A stretch of 64,000 nt of DNA, taken from positions 6,076,001 to 6,140,000 of the forward strand of contig NZ_CP109199.1 of assembly GCF_036250065.1 (NCBI RefSeq), in the 5' to 3' direction. Under the pieces are notes generated by a model, which saw only the letters and a program-made list of their open reading frames with translations, was not told the origin of the DNA and ran no database searches. This document shows, piece by piece, positions 3,169-8,653 of this stretch (positions are counted from its first letter, which is position 1; each line of letters starts with the position of its first letter). Position numbers and translations under genes: made by a program. The DNA comes from Micromonospora sp. NBC_01699. GTDB taxonomy: Bacteria > Actinomycetota > Actinomycetes > Mycobacteriales > Micromonosporaceae.

Positions 3169-5064
3169 GTGCCGATCTCCTCGTCCCTGGTCGCCGGGCC
3201 GACACCGGCCGGTTCCGACCCGCCGCAGACCCCCGCACCGTCGACCCTGACCAGCCGCGACAGGCGGGTTGACCTGCTCGCCCTCGTCGCCGCCCTGGCG
3301 CTGGCGGTCTGGGTGACCAGCGGCCTGTGGGCCGACCCGAACGGCCGGGCGATCACGGTCAACTCCAGCGACCAGGCCCTCTTCGAGTGGCTGCTCGCCT
3401 ACGGGGCGCACGCGCTCACTCACGGCGCCGACCCGCTCTTCACGTCCCTGCTGAACGTCCCCGACGGGGTCAACCTCGCCGTCAACACCTCGATCACCGT
3501 GTACGCCGTGGTCTTCGCCCCGCTGACGTACCTGATCGGGCCACCGGCGACCTTCCTGGTGGTGCTCACCCTCAACCTGGCCGCCACCGCGCTCGCCTGG
3601 TACTGGCTGCTCTCCCGGCACCTGGTCCGGCACCACGCCGCAGCCCTGCTCGGCGGGCTGTTCATCGGCTTCGCCCCCGGCATGGTGTCGCACGCCAACG
3701 CCCACCTGAACTGGACCGCCGGCTGGCTGGTGCCGCTGCTGCTCTGGCGGGTGCTGCGACTGCACACACCCGGCCGTTGGGTACGCAACGGCGTCATCCT
3801 CGGGGTGCTGGTCGCGGTCGCCTTCTCGATCGCCGCCGAGGGGCTGTTCTTCACCGCCCTGGCCTGCGCGGTCTTCCTCGGCACCTGGTCACTCGACCGG
3901 ACCCGCCGGGAGCGGGCACGTGCCGCGCTGCCCACCTTCCTGCGCGGGCTCGCGGTCGCCGGGGCGGTGGCGTTCGCGCTGCTGTCGTACCCGTTGTGGT
4001 TGCACTTCCTCGGCCCGCAGCGCTACCACGGCACCGGCTTCGACCCCCGGATCCACGCCGAGGACATCCTCGCGTTCGCCGCCTTCCCGGCCCGCTCGCT
4101 GGCCGGGGTGGCCGGACTGGACTCCTCTCTCGCCCCCAACCCGACCGAGGAGAACTCGTTCTTCGGGCTGCCGCTGCTGATCCTCGCCGTGGCCTGCCTC
4201 GTGCTGCTCTGGCGGCACGCCGAACCCGGCCGCCGGGCCACCCTGCGGGCGCTCGCGGTCACCGCCGGTGTCTTCGCCGTGCTCTCCTGGGGACCCCGGA
4301 TCAAGATCGACGGCCACATCCTCGACGTCCCACTGCCGTACGCGCTGCTGGGCAGGCTGCCCGTGTTCAACGCCGCCCTGCCGTCCCGGCTCGCCCTGGT
4401 GGTGGCGCCGATCCTCGGCCTGCTGCTCGCGTACGCGGTGCAGCAGCTGGCGCGGGCGCGACTCGACCGGCGGGCCCGGATCGGCTGGACGGTCGGGTTC
4501 GCGGTCGCCCTGCTGCCGCTGCTGCCGGTGAGCCTGCTGACCATCGAGCGGGAACCGATACCCCGGTTCATCACCTCCGGCGACTGGCGCGGGTACGTCA
4601 GCGAGGGCGGCGTACTCGCCCCGCTGCCGTTCACCCTCGACGTCACCCCGGACGGGCAACGCTGGCAGGCGTACGCGCTCGCCCACCGGCAGGGCGAGTT
4701 CGCCATCCCGTCCGGCTTCTTCCTCGGCCCCGGCGGTCCCGACGGGCGGGGCCGGATCGGCCCGGTGCCCCGACCCACCGACGCCCTGCTGGCCGAGGTC
4801 GCCGAGACCGGTACGGTGCCGCCGATCGACGACGCCGACCGGGCCGCCGCCCGCGCCGACCTGCGCCACTGGCGGGTCGAGGCGGTGGTGCTCGCCGACC
4901 GGGTGCACGGCGCCAAGTTCCCGGTGCACGTCGACGCCCTCCTACAGGCCGCCACCGAACTGTTCGGCCCACCCCAACGCGTCAACGACGTCTACCTCTG
5001 GCACCTCCCCCCCACCGGGGCCGTGAGCGGGCTCACCGGGGTGGGGAGGTGGGGGCGGGATTAG
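3169..5064 (+). CDS. Polytopic GT-C-like membrane protein
   Basis: Integral membrane protein of 631 aa with about ten to twelve hydrophobic segments. An N-terminal Pro/Ser/Thr-rich cytoplasmic stretch comes first, the first membrane segment lies near residues 33-50, and a soluble C-terminal domain follows residue 460. After the first segment it has a loop with [16 protein letters not shown] and NAHLNWTAG, the layout of lipid-phosphosugar-dependent GT-C glycosyltransferases or related YfhO-like proteins with an early acidic loop. The donor and acceptor cannot be told from sequence. The GTG start is set by the leaderless -10 element. Its stop lies 10 nt before the lipB start, inside the lipB promoter, so it is a tight neighbour but not necessarily co-transcribed. 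Confidence 0.8.
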
Positions 5065-5074: not shown

Positions 5075-5713
5075 GTGACCAGCACTGTTTCCGGCTTGAA
5101 GGCCGTACACCTTGGCGAGATCGACTATCTGGCCGCCTGGGATGAGCAGCGTCGGCTGCACGAGGCGGTGGTCGCCGGTGAGCAGCCGGACACGGTCCTG
5201 CTGCTGGAGCACCCGAGCGTCTACACCGCGGGCAAGCGCACCGAGCCGGCCGACCGGCCGGTCGACGGCACTCCGGTGATCGACGTCGACCGGGGCGGGA
5301 AGCTGACCTGGCACGGGCCGGGGCAGCTCGTCGGCTACCCGATCGTCCGGCTGCCCGACCCGGTGGACGTGGTGGCGTACGTCCGGCGTACCGAGGAGAT
5401 GCTGATGGAGGTCTGCGCCGAGGTGGGGCTGGTCACGACGCAGATCGAGGGGCGCAGCGGGGTCTGGGTGCCGCAGGACGAGCGCGGCCCGGCCCGCAAG
5501 GTCGCCGCGCTCGGCATCCGGGTCGCCCGTGGGGTGACCCTGCACGGGTTCTCGATCAACTGTGACTGCGAGCTGGGCGCCTTCGAGCAGATAGTGCCGT
5601 GCGGCATCCGCGACGCCGGAGTCACCTCGCTCACCGCCGAACTCGGCCGCCGGGTCACCGTCGCCGACGTGCTCCCCCTGGTCGAGCGCCGCCTGCCGAG
5701 CCTGCTCGGCTGA
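5075..5713 (+). CDS. lipB: Octanoyl-[acyl carrier protein]-protein octanoyltransferase
   Basis: First step of protein lipoylation: transfers octanoate from acyl carrier protein to the lipoyl domains of 2-oxoacid dehydrogenases and glycine cleavage H protein. At 212 aa it has normal family length. Motifs in order: [14 protein letters not shown] (residues 42-55), [18 protein letters not shown] (74-91), the catalytic Lys142 in [18 protein letters not shown] (157-164), and the thioester-forming Cys176 in EQIVPCGI. The numbering of Lys142 and Cys176 agrees with the Mycobacterium enzyme as I recall it. LipA, which normally follows directly, lies 1.9 kb further on because an inverted aspS unit intervenes. 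A strong bidirectional terminator follows. Confidence 0.97.
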
Positions 5714-5859: not shown

Positions 5860-7185
5860 CTACGGGGTCAGCCGGTGCAGGTCGCGGGGGAACGCGGTGA
5901 CCTCCCGGATGTTGGCGGCACCGGTCAGCCGGGCGACGAATCGCTCCAGCCCGATCGCGAAGCCCCCGTGCGGCGGCATCCCGTGCCGGAACGCCGCCAC
6001 GTAGGTCGCGACCGGCTCGACCGGCTCGTTCCGGGCGGCGAGCGCCGCCAGGTAGTCGCCGTGCCGGTGCAGGCGCTGACCGCCGGTGACCAGTTCGACC
6101 CCACGAAAGAGCAGGTCAAAACCGTTCGAGTACGCGGGTTCCCCGGCCCCCGCCAACGCCGGCCGGAACTCGGGGCTGCCCGGTCGGGCCGGGTGGGTGT
6201 AGAACGGGCGCTTGGCCATCGGGTACCCCGTGACGAAGAGGAACTCGCAGCCGTGCTCGGCGCGGGCCCACTCCCCCAGCGTCCGCTCGTGCGCGGGGGC
6301 GAGGTCGGGTTCGTCCGGCGCCGCACCGGCGATCCGCAGCGCCTCGGTGAAGTGCACCGACGGGATCTCGGCCGGCACCGGCGGCAGGTCGATCCCGAGG
6401 GTGTCCAGCGCACCGCCGGCCCGTACGGCGATCGAGTCGAGCATGCCGGCCAGCACCTCGCGCAGCATCGACATCACGTCCCGGTGGTCTTCGACGAAGC
6501 CGAACTCGACGTCCAGTGACGTGTACTGGGCCAGGTGGCGGGCGGTGTCGTGCGGTTCGGCCCGGAACACCGGCCCGACCTCGTACACCCGCTCGAAGAC
6601 GCCGACCATCAGCTGCTTGTAGAACTGCGGCGACTGGGCCAGGTACGCGGGCCGACCGAAATAGTCCAGCTCGAAGACGTTCGCCCCGCTCTCGGTGGCA
6701 CCGGCCACCAGTTTCGGGGTGTGCACCTCGACGAAGTCGCGGGCGTCGAGGGTGGCCCGGAAGCCGGCCACCGCCGCCGCCGAGATCCGCAGCGCGGCCG
6801 ACCGGGTCGGGTGCCGCAGGGCCACCGGCGCATGGTCCAGCTGGGTCGGCAGGGTGGCGGCCAGGGCCGGCCGGTACAGGTCGAACGGGGGCGGTACGGC
6901 GGGTTCGCCGAGCAGGCGTACCGAAGGCTCCACCAGCTCGACCCCGGCGGGCGCGGCGGGGTTCGCGACCACCTCGCCGGTGACCTGGAGCACGGTCTCC
7001 TCGGGCAGCTCGGCCAGCCAGGCCCGCAGCTCCGGGTCGGTGACCACCACCTGGGCCAGCCCGCCGGCGTCACGCAGGATCAGGAACGCCACCGATTTCA
7101 GCAGCCGGCGGCGGTGCAGCCAGCCGGCGATCGTCACCGGGCGGCCGACGTGGGTGGGCAGGGAGGTGGAAAGGACGCGTCGCAT
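5860..7185 (-). CDS. aspS: Archaeal-type aspartyl-tRNA synthetase, probably non-discriminating
   Basis: Class IIb aminoacyl-tRNA synthetase that charges tRNA with Asp. At 441 aa it is the short archaeal/eukaryotic-like form and lacks the GAD insertion of the usual bacterial AspRS of about 590 aa. An OB-fold anticodon-binding domain occupies about residues 1-100, with GWLHRRRLLKSVAFLILRD. The catalytic core contains SPQFYKQLMV, motif 2 around FRAEPHDTARHL, and motif 3 GFAIGLERF near the C-terminus. His24 in GWLHR is at the position where archaeal non-discriminating enzymes have His and Asn-excluding enzymes have Trp, so it may also aspartylate tRNA-Asn (inference). ATG start with GAGGAGGT at 8 nt. 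A T-box leader precedes it. The genome presumably holds a standard AspRS elsewhere, which would make this a second, regulated copy. Confidence 0.92.
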   Translation of the reverse strand: MRRVLSTSLPTHVGRPVTIAGWLHRRRLLKSVAFLILRDAGGLAQVVVTDPELRAWLAELPEETVLQVTGEVVANPAAPAGVELVEPSVRLLGEPAVPPPFDLYRPALAATLPTQLDHAPVALRHPTRSAALRISAAAVAGFRATLDARDFVEVHTPKLVAGATESGANVFELDYFGRPAYLAQSPQFYKQLMVGVFERVYEVGPVFRAEPHDTARHLAQYTSLDVEFGFVEDHRDVMSMLREVLAGMLDSIAVRAGGALDTLGIDLPPVPAEIPSVHFTEALRIAGAAPDEPDLAPAHERTLGEWARAEHGCEFLFVTGYPMAKRPFYTHPARPGSPEFRPALAGAGEPAYSNGFDLLFRGVELVTGGQRLHRHGDYLAALAARNEPVEPVATYVAAFRHGMPPHGGFAIGLERFVARLTGAANIREVTAFPRDLHRLTP

Positions 7186-7192
7186 GTGGTGT

Positions 7193-7480
7193 TACCTCCT
7201 CGTTCATCGCAACGCGATCCCCGGGAGGTGTGGGCGAGCGGGAACCTCGCGGTGCCACCACACCTTCGCCGTCGGGCGGCGAACCGCCGACGGCCTCGTT
7301 CGTCGCCCGTGACGTGGGCCGGTCGGCGGGCTCTACTGGATGCCGCGACCCGTGTGCCCCGGCATCGTTCTTCCCGCAGCTCGGGAGGGTCTTCACGGCT
7401 CGGACGGGGGTCACCTTCGCAGCTACCGGTGACTCTCTCGAAACCCCGCCGGTCGAACCGTTACTCGGCTCCGTCGTCGC
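7193..7480 (-). promoter_or_regulatory. T-box riboswitch (Asp specifier) upstream of aspS
   Basis: Minus-strand leader with the elements of a T-box in order: an AGUA strand of the specifier-loop S-turn (7465-7462), AGAGAG of the distal AG bulge (7438-7433) closed by GUCACC/GGUGAC, then GUGAA followed by the specifier triplet GAC for Asp (7391-7389). The T-box sequence UGGUGGCACCGCG (7260-7248) supplies UGGC to pair with an uncharged GCCA acceptor end, matching tRNA-Asp. Downstream, GGUGUGG (7264-7258) can pair with CCACACC (7233-7227). Alternatively ACACCUCC just there can pair with the ribosome site GAGGAGGU (7201-7194). This gives mutually exclusive antisequestrator and sequestrator helices, so regulation is probably translational. 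A TAGGGT hexamer at 7496-7491 is a possible -10. Confidence 0.85.
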
Positions 7481-7608
7481 TGTTGCGCGAGACCCTAACA
7501 GGGGGCGCTCGGGCCCGACAGCGGATTTCGGCGCACCGGGTGAGTGCGATCACAACCTGCGGTTAGTGAGCCCCGTCGCCTACGCTGCCGCCGACCTCCC
7601 GCTACGCG

Positions 7609-7614
7609 TAGGCT
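7609..7614 (+). promoter_or_regulatory. Leaderless -10 element of lipA
   Basis: TAGGCT ends 7 nt before the lipA GTG start, with no ribosome site between them. It lies in the divergent region shared with the T-box leader. Together with that leader and its possible -10, these elements account for the otherwise gene-free stretch 7186-7621. Confidence 0.5.
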
Positions 7615-7621
7615 CGGATTC

Positions 7622-8653
7622 GTGACCATCGAGCAATCCGGAACGCCGACTGCCGTGCCGCAGCCGGCCGGCAACGTTGCCACCGCTTCGGGCCCTCGGA
7701 CCACCGGACCCGCCGCGCCCGAGGGGCGCCGACTACTCCGCGTCGAGGCGCGCAACGCCGCGACGCCGATCGAGCGGAAGCCGCCGTGGATCAAGGTCAA
7801 GGCGAAGATGGGTCCGGAATACACCCAGCTACGCGGCCTGGTCTCCCGCGAAGGGCTGCACACGGTCTGTCAGGAGGCCGGCTGCCCCAACATCTACGAG
7901 TGTTGGGAGGACCGCGAGGCCACCTTCCTCATCGGCGGTGACCAGTGCACCCGCCGCTGCGACTTCTGCCAGATCGACACCGGTAAGCCGGCCGAGTTCG
8001 ACGCCGACGAACCGCGCCGGGTCGGCGAGTCGGTGGCGGCGATGGGGTTGCGCTACGCGACGGTGACCGGGGTGGCCCGCGACGACCTGCCCGACGGCGG
8101 CGCCTGGCTCTACGCCGAGACGGTCCGCCAGATCCACGCCCTCCAGGGCGGCTGCGGCGTCGAGCTGCTGATCCCCGACTTCAACGGCGACCCACAGCAG
8201 CTGGCCGAGGTGTTCGGCTCCCGGCCGGAGGTGCTCGCGCACAACGTGGAGACGGTGCCGCGGATCTTCAAGCGGATCCGGCCCGGCTTCCGCTACGAAC
8301 GGTCGCTGGACGTCATCACCCAGGCCCGCGCCGCCGGGCTGGTGACCAAGTCGAACCTGATCCTCGGCCTGGGCGAGCAGCGCGAGGAGATCTCGCAGGC
8401 GCTGCGCGACCTGCACGCCGCCGGCTGCGAGCTGATCACCATCACGCAGTACCTGCGGCCGACCCCGCGTCACCACCCGGTGGAGCGGTGGGTGAAGCCG
8501 GAGGAGTTCGTCGAGCTGGCCGCCGAGGCCGAGCAGGTCGGTTTCGCCGGGGTGATGAGCGGGCCGCTGGTGCGCTCGTCGTACCGGGCGGGTCGGCTCT
8601 ACCAGCAGGCGCTCGACGCCCGCCAGGGCAACGTCGCCGCACTCGCCGGCTGA
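7622..8653 (+). CDS. lipA: Lipoyl synthase (radical SAM)
   Basis: Inserts two sulfur atoms into octanoyl-lysine domains made by LipB, completing lipoate synthesis in the cytoplasm. The protein has 343 aa. Residues Cys83, Cys88 and Cys94 ([12 protein letters not shown]) bind the auxiliary sulfur-donating cluster; Cys109, Cys113 and Cys116 (CTRRCDFC) form the radical SAM cluster. [13 protein letters not shown] near the C-terminus contains the conserved RSSY serine that ligates the auxiliary cluster. The N-terminal 45 residues are Pro/Thr-rich and unconserved. The GTG at 7622 is chosen because of the leaderless -10. An in-frame start 78 nt upstream would add a basic low-complexity extension with no support. 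Confidence 0.97.

Follow-up and report, generated by a model that had tools for sequence, protein, structure and literature searches.

The leader of the aspS2 gene, on the minus strand of the window (the whole stretch of 64,000 nucleotides of Micromonospora sp. NBC_01699 DNA analysed here), is with high probability, judged from its sequence, a T-box riboswitch of class I architecture and translational output which senses uncharged tRNA-Asp. The structural elements, their complementarity to tRNA-Asp, their conservation among relatives and the covariation of several helices are seen in the compared leaders, and the regulated gene codes for a second, archaeal-type aspartyl-tRNA synthetase (AspRS).

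Identification of the T-box element

The preliminary description had placed a T-box with an Asp specifier at 7193-7480 and had proposed a covariance-model search as a check. In a 701-nt search the RF00230 model gave a match at positions 7227-7486 (-), covering the full model (1-219) with 48.8 bits and an E value of 1.3e-9. In the complete genome of 8,280,328 bases it was the only RF00230 match with E <= 0.001 (E 3.6e-9). All the landmarks that had been named were found on the minus strand at their positions, and the location was right, with end points a few bases off the coordinates of the element. The default Rfam scan of the window listed nothing; the score of 48.8 bits is below the RF00230 gathering score of 93. 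Such a low score is usual for the class, since the 93-bit cut-off was passed by 0 of the 394 genomes of the class sample while a match at E <= 0.001 was present in 202 of them, a count scored with stricter filters by which weak matches are lost. Annotation at the Rfam cut-off would thus overlook actinomycete T-boxes. Another Rfam match, of v-snoRNA-1 inside the aspS2 coding region, reached 24.2 bits against a cut-off of 75 and was dismissed as chance.

The stability of the 301-nt leader is modest in the unconstrained fold (z -2.2 versus shuffles, with 3 of the 100 shuffles equally stable). In the minimum-energy structure the Shine-Dalgarno (SD) sequence is paired and the T-box helices as drawn are absent.

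Anatomy of the leader

All the features of the leader lie on the minus strand. A -10-like hexamer TAGGGT (7492..7497) is found in the sequence just upstream of Stem I. Stem I itself (7378-7481) is of the long form with a K-turn, specifier loop, AG bulge and distal loop, as assigned by the RF00230 alignment and by covariation in 34 leaders. Its proximal helix GGAG/CUCC lies above the K-turn base and the specifier loop is made of the strands CCGAGUAA/UGAAGACC, with the Asp codon GAC at 7389-7391 identified by the RF00230 alignment and by the stem-geometry reading described below. The same alignment places the AG bulge AGAGAG at 7433-7438 and the distal loop GGUAGCUGCGAA at 7416-7427; from its role in the family, the latter is predicted to be a double T-loop binding the tRNA elbow. 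Stem II (7326-7377) carries the S-turn strands AAGAAC / CAGUAGAG and was drawn from the RF00230 alignment and pairing in the 34 leaders. It is followed by Stem IIA/B (7301-7319), a candidate H-type pseudoknot (GCCC/GGGC and CGU/ACG) from a pseudoknot search in 33 leaders, and by Stem III (7268-7294).

The antisequestrator (7227-7264) consists of helix A1 (GGUGUGG/CCACACC), the T-box bulge and helix A2 (GCGAG/CUCGC); like Stem III, it was assigned by pairing in the 34 leaders. The T-box bulge UGGCACC (7251-7257) was located by the RF00230 alignment. The anti-SD sequence ACCUCC (7224-7229), taken from two-state folds and a conservation test, overlaps the 3' strand of A1 and is the exact complement of the SD sequence GGAGGU (7194-7199). 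The start codon AUG is at 7183-7185, and 41 nt separate the end of the RF00230 match from the start of aspS2.

A simple sigma-70 scan gave no promoter. The motif TANNNT was found 28-31 nt upstream of the specifier-loop AGT with 83 hits over 84 anchored long leaders, in a bin chosen after the peak had been seen (the preset bin of 30-46 nt had 31 hits). Due to this spacing the transcript probably starts near the base of the T-box, at Stem I. The aspS2 gene lies between lipB (5075-5713, +) and the divergent lipA (ORF listed at 7544-8653, +, and searched from 7622), and the T-box leader therefore occupies most of the gap before lipA.

The regulated gene

The gene under the leader (5860-7185, -) encodes a 441-aa archaeal-type AspRS, as assigned from the ORF and from NCBIfam, Pfam and PDB sequence matches. 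The protein scored 512.6 bits with NCBIfam NF003483, 'aspartate--tRNA(Asn) ligase' (cut-off 353), and 329.2 bits with TIGR00458, aspS_nondisc, which is under the cut-off of 368.4. The AspRS target of the preliminary description is thus an AspRS gene, and specifically the second, archaeal-type enzyme, not the ordinary one. The best PDB sequence match was 1n9w (E 1.6e-105), a non-discriminating archaeal-type AspRS 2 which we take to be the T. thermophilus enzyme. The aligned residues are His and Pro as in 1n9w, whereas 1b8a (T. kodakarensis AspRS) has Trp and Lys; His and Pro at those positions would be a mark of non-discrimination. The genome also encodes a complete bacterial AspRS (NF001750, 827.6 bits) and GatB. 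Its PF00152 proteins are three, AspRS, LysRS and AspRS2; with no fourth protein from PF00152, no AsnRS was seen in the genome.

The presence of the complete bacterial enzyme raises the question of purpose. AspRS2 could be an inducible spare or self-resistance enzyme which is called upon when the ordinary AspRS is inhibited, and not a response to aspartate starvation. This is a possible but somewhat doubtful purpose, and it is compatible with T-box control by tRNA-Asp. It has a precedent in IleRS2, which offsets the mupirocin sensitivity of IleRS1 (PMC9437257), and among synthetase duplicates of Firmicutes a single copy is reported to carry a T-box in 58% of cases (excerpt of PMC2494555). The position of aspS2 between lipB and lipA speaks against it.

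Specifier and tRNA-Asp

The genome also contains a tRNA-Asp gene with the anticodon GTC and an encoded 3' end ...CAGGACC-G-CCA; the search pattern was not exhaustive and further copies may exist. The anticodon GUC and the 3' GCCA are complementary to the specifier GAC and to UGGC of the T-box bulge, respectively. As the sorting of leaders into long and short forms uses GAAGAC itself, the specifier was read again from stem geometry. In this reading GAC was obtained in the window and in 52 of the 53 aspS2 leaders that could be resolved (123 tried), and the single other reading came from a short leader where the geometry rule seems to misfire. The same approach on ileS leaders as control gave AUC in 21 of 23 resolved leaders (33 tried). 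The rule was written after the alignments had been seen, with a preferred spacing that differs between aspS2 and ileS, so these counts are a test of consistency and not a blind one. The Asn specifier AAC, considered as a candidate, was absent among the triplets read from the 53 resolved leaders.

The variable base of UGGN in 123 aspS2 leaders was C in 103 and U in 20, the window adding one more C, and it was U in all 33 ileS leaders. This difference is expected for the discriminator bases of the two tRNAs: G73 was observed in the tRNA-Asp of this genome, and tRNA-Ile has A73. The base after the specifier is C in the window and A in nearly all ileS leaders; among the 52 GAC leaders it was C in 47 and A in 5. 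For the 37 short leaders, GAC followed by a purine was found in a hairpin loop in 33, making it the commonest of the 64 triplets (50 shuffles of the same leaders gave a mean of 8.0 and a maximum of 12); the figure counts leaders with some such hairpin, and in some cases (e.g. L130, L135, L138, L192 and L205) a hairpin other than the Stem I loop scores best. The runner-up was GTG with 25 of 37, probably through overlap with GUGAC.

The nature of the enzyme brings in another ligand. Uncharged tRNA-Asn (GUU) might be sensed also, or mainly, by means of a G-U pair with the first base of the specifier. AspRS2 looks non-discriminating by its model name and by the His and Pro residues shared with T. 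thermophilus AspRS-2, AsnRS is missing from the PF00152 proteins and GatB is present. There is also the LysRS1 T-box of B. cereus, which responds to both tRNA-Lys and tRNA-Asn (PMC2916919, in excerpt). Still, we consider sensing of tRNA-Asn improbable: the codon in all but one of the resolved leaders is GAC and not AAC, and T-boxes tend to strict Watson-Crick pairing at the specifier according to the part of PMC7778990 consulted.

Predicted sequestration of the ribosome binding site

For the 82-nt 3' part of the leader, the sequestered fold is the minimum at -37.0 kcal/mol and the antisequestrator fold has -30.7 kcal/mol, i.e. 6.3 kcal/mol costlier. In this energy model the order of the two folds is as would be expected for a switch that is off by default. 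In the window, pairing in the sequestered fold extends to the bases directly ahead of the start codon and into the codon itself. Of 109 leaders that could be tested, 86 have the SD sequence paired with the 3' strand of A1 or with the 8 nt that follow it; in five controls, where everything between this strand and the SD sequence was shuffled together with the strand, the count fell to 26, 32, 32, 35 and 28. The other 15 of the 124 T-box leaders were excluded, having no start codon with an SD sequence by the rule used. No terminator-like hairpin with a T run was found in the leader.

Control is most likely translational, because no terminator was seen and the anti-SD sequence overlaps the antisequestrator. 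Termination, rather than ribosome access, would be the controlled step in a transcriptional T-box, and such an arrangement is conceivable since class I and class II T-boxes generally regulate termination (PMC10482949, in excerpt) and since a Corynebacterium his element that can sequester its SD sequence is nevertheless reported to affect transcription (excerpt of PMC3896937). With the SD pairing above that of shuffles and with no terminator-like site in the leader, we regard transcriptional control as very unlikely and rejected it.

For the T-box reading with translational output, we infer the following course of tRNA binding, sensing of aminoacylation and switching. Uncharged tRNA-Asp would pair its anticodon GUC with the specifier GAC, its elbow would dock on the tip of Stem I, and its free 3' GCCA would pair with UGGC of the T-box bulge. 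The bound 3' end would stabilise the antisequestrator, leaving the SD sequence GGAGGU and the start codon free, and translation of AspRS2 would be turned on. In case of charged tRNA-Asp, the 3' end could not insert, ACCUCC would stay paired with GGAGGU and aspS2 would remain off. As features of the sequence, the Asp specifier, the AspRS target and the mutually exclusive helices round the ribosome site all hold as first described.

Helix conservation and covariation

The structure was compared in 34 leaders, the window included, which had been picked from 82 long ones by the S-turn motif and spacing. As control for each helix the partner strands were slid by 1-3 positions, and the figures below are the percentage of paired positions and the number of two-sided changes. 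Judged by these comparisons, most helices hold up. The middle helix of Stem I was 88% paired with 44 two-sided changes (slid, 31-48% and 2-19), its distal helix 95% with 18 (slid, 23-67% and 0-1) and its base 95% with 9 (slid, 3-70% and 0). The proximal helix of Stem I (100%, 0 changes) and the lower helix of Stem II (96%, 0) are nearly invariant, and the upper helix of Stem II had 86% with 28 changes (slid, 28-50% and 3-20). For the helix below the AG bulge, the pairing of 62% was weak and did not beat sliding (70% when slid by -1).

Stem III was 84% paired with 39 two-sided changes (slid, 39-60% and 2-39), and sliding by -2 also gave 39 such changes. Helices A1 (100%, 4 changes; slid, at most 69% paired) and A2 (100%, 5 changes; slid, at most 58%) are well paired with few two-sided changes, and the sequestrator helix had 83% with 1 change (slid, 40-65% and 1-6). 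The IIA helix (90%, 0 changes) is nearly invariant, and the second pseudoknot helix was 58% paired against 69% when slid by -3. The complete H-type pseudoknot of Stem IIA/B could be formed in 14 of 33 leaders, compared to a mean of 2.6 and a maximum of 8 in 50 shuffles.

Distribution of aspS2 leaders

The aspS2 gene, called at E <= 1e-110 so that more distant relatives are uncounted, was present in 36 of 394 class-sample genomes and in 108 of 150 family-sample genomes, with 3 genomes common to both. The set of 140 aspS2 leaders comprises 139 fetched ones and that of the window; a partial gene of G397 was dropped, and for G491 400 upstream bases were taken instead of 1000. Presence of a T-box was scored by the bulge motif TGGNACCG[CG]G and not by a covariance model on each leader. 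On this basis 124 of the 140 have a T-box, 87 with a long and 37 with a short Stem I. By group the counts were 106/107 in f1, 7/7 in f19, 4/4 in f29, 2/2 in f11, 1/1 each in f2, f3, f17 and f21, 1/15 in f39 and 0/1 in f10; the 16 leaders without the bulge thus belong to 14 of the 15 f39 genes, one f10 gene and one f1 gene. The expectation that an Asp T-box would widen the actinobacterial set stands as to its Asp specifier, and the case is not an isolated one.

This breadth also bears on whether the element is a chance or decayed T-box. The score under the gathering cut-off and the weak z-score of the whole-leader fold are what such an explanation could draw on; the genome-wide E value, the covariation in Stem I and Stem II and the near-constant bulge in f1 oppose it. 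A decayed element is exceedingly improbable, and a chance match is ruled out by the E value, covariation and conservation.

Among named relatives, in the best 80 of 357 loci (presumably all from genera of Micromonosporaceae), the bulge sequence was found in 79. The single locus without it is that of Micromonospora sonchi (L017), whose leader has apparently been deprived of its 3' part. A GC-rich palindromic repeat (GGGCCCC...TTAAC) seemingly lies inside three Micromonospora leaders (L017, L012 and L077); L012 and L077 keep the bulge motif and have no long Stem I with GAAGAC.

Some loci depart from the usual arrangement. In L142 (G182, f21) and L262 (G433, f1), Asp T-boxes stand before another type of AspRS. 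The L142 enzyme has 54% identity to an f39-type AspRS whose gene has no T-box, 37% to the enzyme of the window and 78% to that of L262. Either the T-box has moved or it has been lost in f39. A doubtful branch of 4.67 in the quick aspS2 tree leads to L142 and L262 and is explained by their being closer to the f39-type AspRS. On contig C895 of G007 (f10), aspS2 (3699-4739, +) is preceded at a distance of about 3.4 kb by a T-box match (55-242, +), and no bulge motif was found within 1 kb of this gene. The locus L104 (G225, f21), on the minus strand, has another T-box with its bulge at 1717 of the reverse complement, the triplet UCC (Ser) in the place of the specifier and UGGC; the ORF downstream starts MLDVTLIRNHPDHV and by eye resembles the N-terminus of SerRS.

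Reduced forms of the leader

Four forms of the aspS2 leader were observed among relatives, and that of the window is the long Stem I with Stem II. The second form, seen in 27 of 123 leaders, has a long Stem I but leaves no space for Stem II, with 48-66 nt from specifier to bulge; named examples are Amorphoplanes nipponensis (L068), Actinoplanes aureus (L073) and Phytohabitans flavus (L075). In the third, a short Stem I is combined with a middle part of greater length (e.g. Catellatospora), and the fourth (short Stem I, 55 nt, no Stem II) is found in G530 and G533. The leaders of these two genomes (L231 and L240) consist of a K-turned hairpin with the loop AGUGACG (7-8 nt), a short linker, Stem III and the antisequestrator, and have neither an elbow-binding tip nor Stem II. 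Their 28-base minimal Stem I is identical, whereas the two Stem III sequences differ by changes that look compensatory by eye. At <=3 mismatches this minimal Stem I occurs in 2 of 354 family genomes, both of genus code g165. Leaders of the short class vary among themselves, L175, L222, L230, L233 and L248 looking intermediate by eye; L250, L256 and L260, also short, have 53-66 nt to the T-box, and the minimal forms may exceed two.

In a quick tree the long or short state requires 8 changes among the T-box bearers, and for the short group well-supported branches force at least 4. According to the consulted part of PMC10482949, which sets out four T-box classes, binding is strengthened by the tip of Stem I, by the S-turn of Stem II, or by the two together. 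In actinomycetes the aspS2 leaders may constitute one T-box family with one specifier, with separate and repeated losses of Stem II and of upper Stem I; with both gone, the G530 and G533 leaders would fit none of these classes and tRNA would be recognised by the specifier and the 3' end alone. This proposal is quite conceivable, though we lean slightly against it. Its odds are lowered by the disputed reduced Corynebacterium element (PMC3896937, in excerpt), and in the two genomes that carry it the minimal form may be functional or decayed.

The aspS2 family offers a natural deletion series, since the specifier of this orthologous gene stays the same and parts of Stem I and Stem II are present in some leaders and absent from others. 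The contacts needed by a translational T-box can hence be tested across close relatives, e.g. G466 (long Stem I, no Stem II) versus G533 (short Stem I, no Stem II), which are of the same genus.

Comparison with known T-boxes

The publications compared here are used in excerpt, and the likenesses and differences given are those found in the consulted parts. In a 2005 survey, actinobacterial translational T-boxes were upstream of ileS genes only (PMC1262725), and structures of the N. farcinica and M. tuberculosis ileS T-boxes are cited in PMC7583486. In common with them, the aspS2 leader lies upstream of a synthetase gene and has an SD-sequestering hairpin without a terminator, together with the S-turn, Stem III and antisequestrator plan. 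It reads GAC with UGGC whereas the ileS T-boxes have AUC and UGGU, and unlike them it has a long Stem I with a predicted elbow-binding tip and a second AspRS as its target. The statement that actinobacterial T-boxes are known mainly for ileS leaves out the disputed Corynebacterium His T-box (PMC3896937) and the various synthetases which T-boxes control in Actinobacteria (PMC9413887).

In comparison to class I (B. subtilis tyrS type, PMC10482949), the leader of the window shares the long Stem I, the specifier in an internal loop, the distal loop and the Stem II S-turn. Class I generally acts on termination whereas the aspS2 leader has an SD sequestrator. A few translational T-boxes with a long Stem I are already known (PMC7583486), so this combination in the window is known but uncommon. 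With class II (B. subtilis glyQS, PMC10482949), it is not the leader of the window but the 27 of its relatives that share a long Stem I lacking Stem II; T-boxes of class II are said to be specific for glycine, whereas these 27 read GAC and look translational. With class III (N. farcinica ileS, PMC10482949), the short aspS2 leaders of relatives share a specifier in a hairpin loop. They differ in reading GAC in loops of about 7-10 nt, against AUC and 5-6 nt, and Stem II, which class III is said to need, is missing in two of the aspS2-leader genomes.

The nearest precedent for the reduced form is the C. glutamicum hisD leader (PMC3896937), which is very short, can sequester the SD sequence and is said to have neither Stem II nor Stem III. 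Its His specifier lies in a bulge, its T-box sequence is weakly conserved and its authors doubt its status as a T-box, whereas in the minimal aspS2 leaders both Stem III and the complete T-box sequence are retained. The B. cereus lysK T-box (PMC2916919) likewise serves a second synthetase, of archaeal type, in addition to the ordinary one; it differs in amino acid and phylum.

In the literature searched, an Asp T-box of actinomycetes is nowhere reported, and TBDB, whose own model was run on Actinobacteria, may already list some. To the actinomycete T-boxes found in print our study adds an amino acid (Asp) and a target (aspS2). A T-box of C. acetobutylicum, the subject of reports by Saad of 2012 and 2013, is said to control a non-discriminating AspRS in a tRNA-dependent amidation operon with gatCAB; it is reportedly transcriptional and reads Asn/Glu codons. 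Unlike that element, the aspS2 T-box reads GAC and stands upstream of aspS2. Beside these systems, the present one draws its main interest from the breadth of the aspS2 family, the possible control of a spare enzyme and the natural series of reduced forms.
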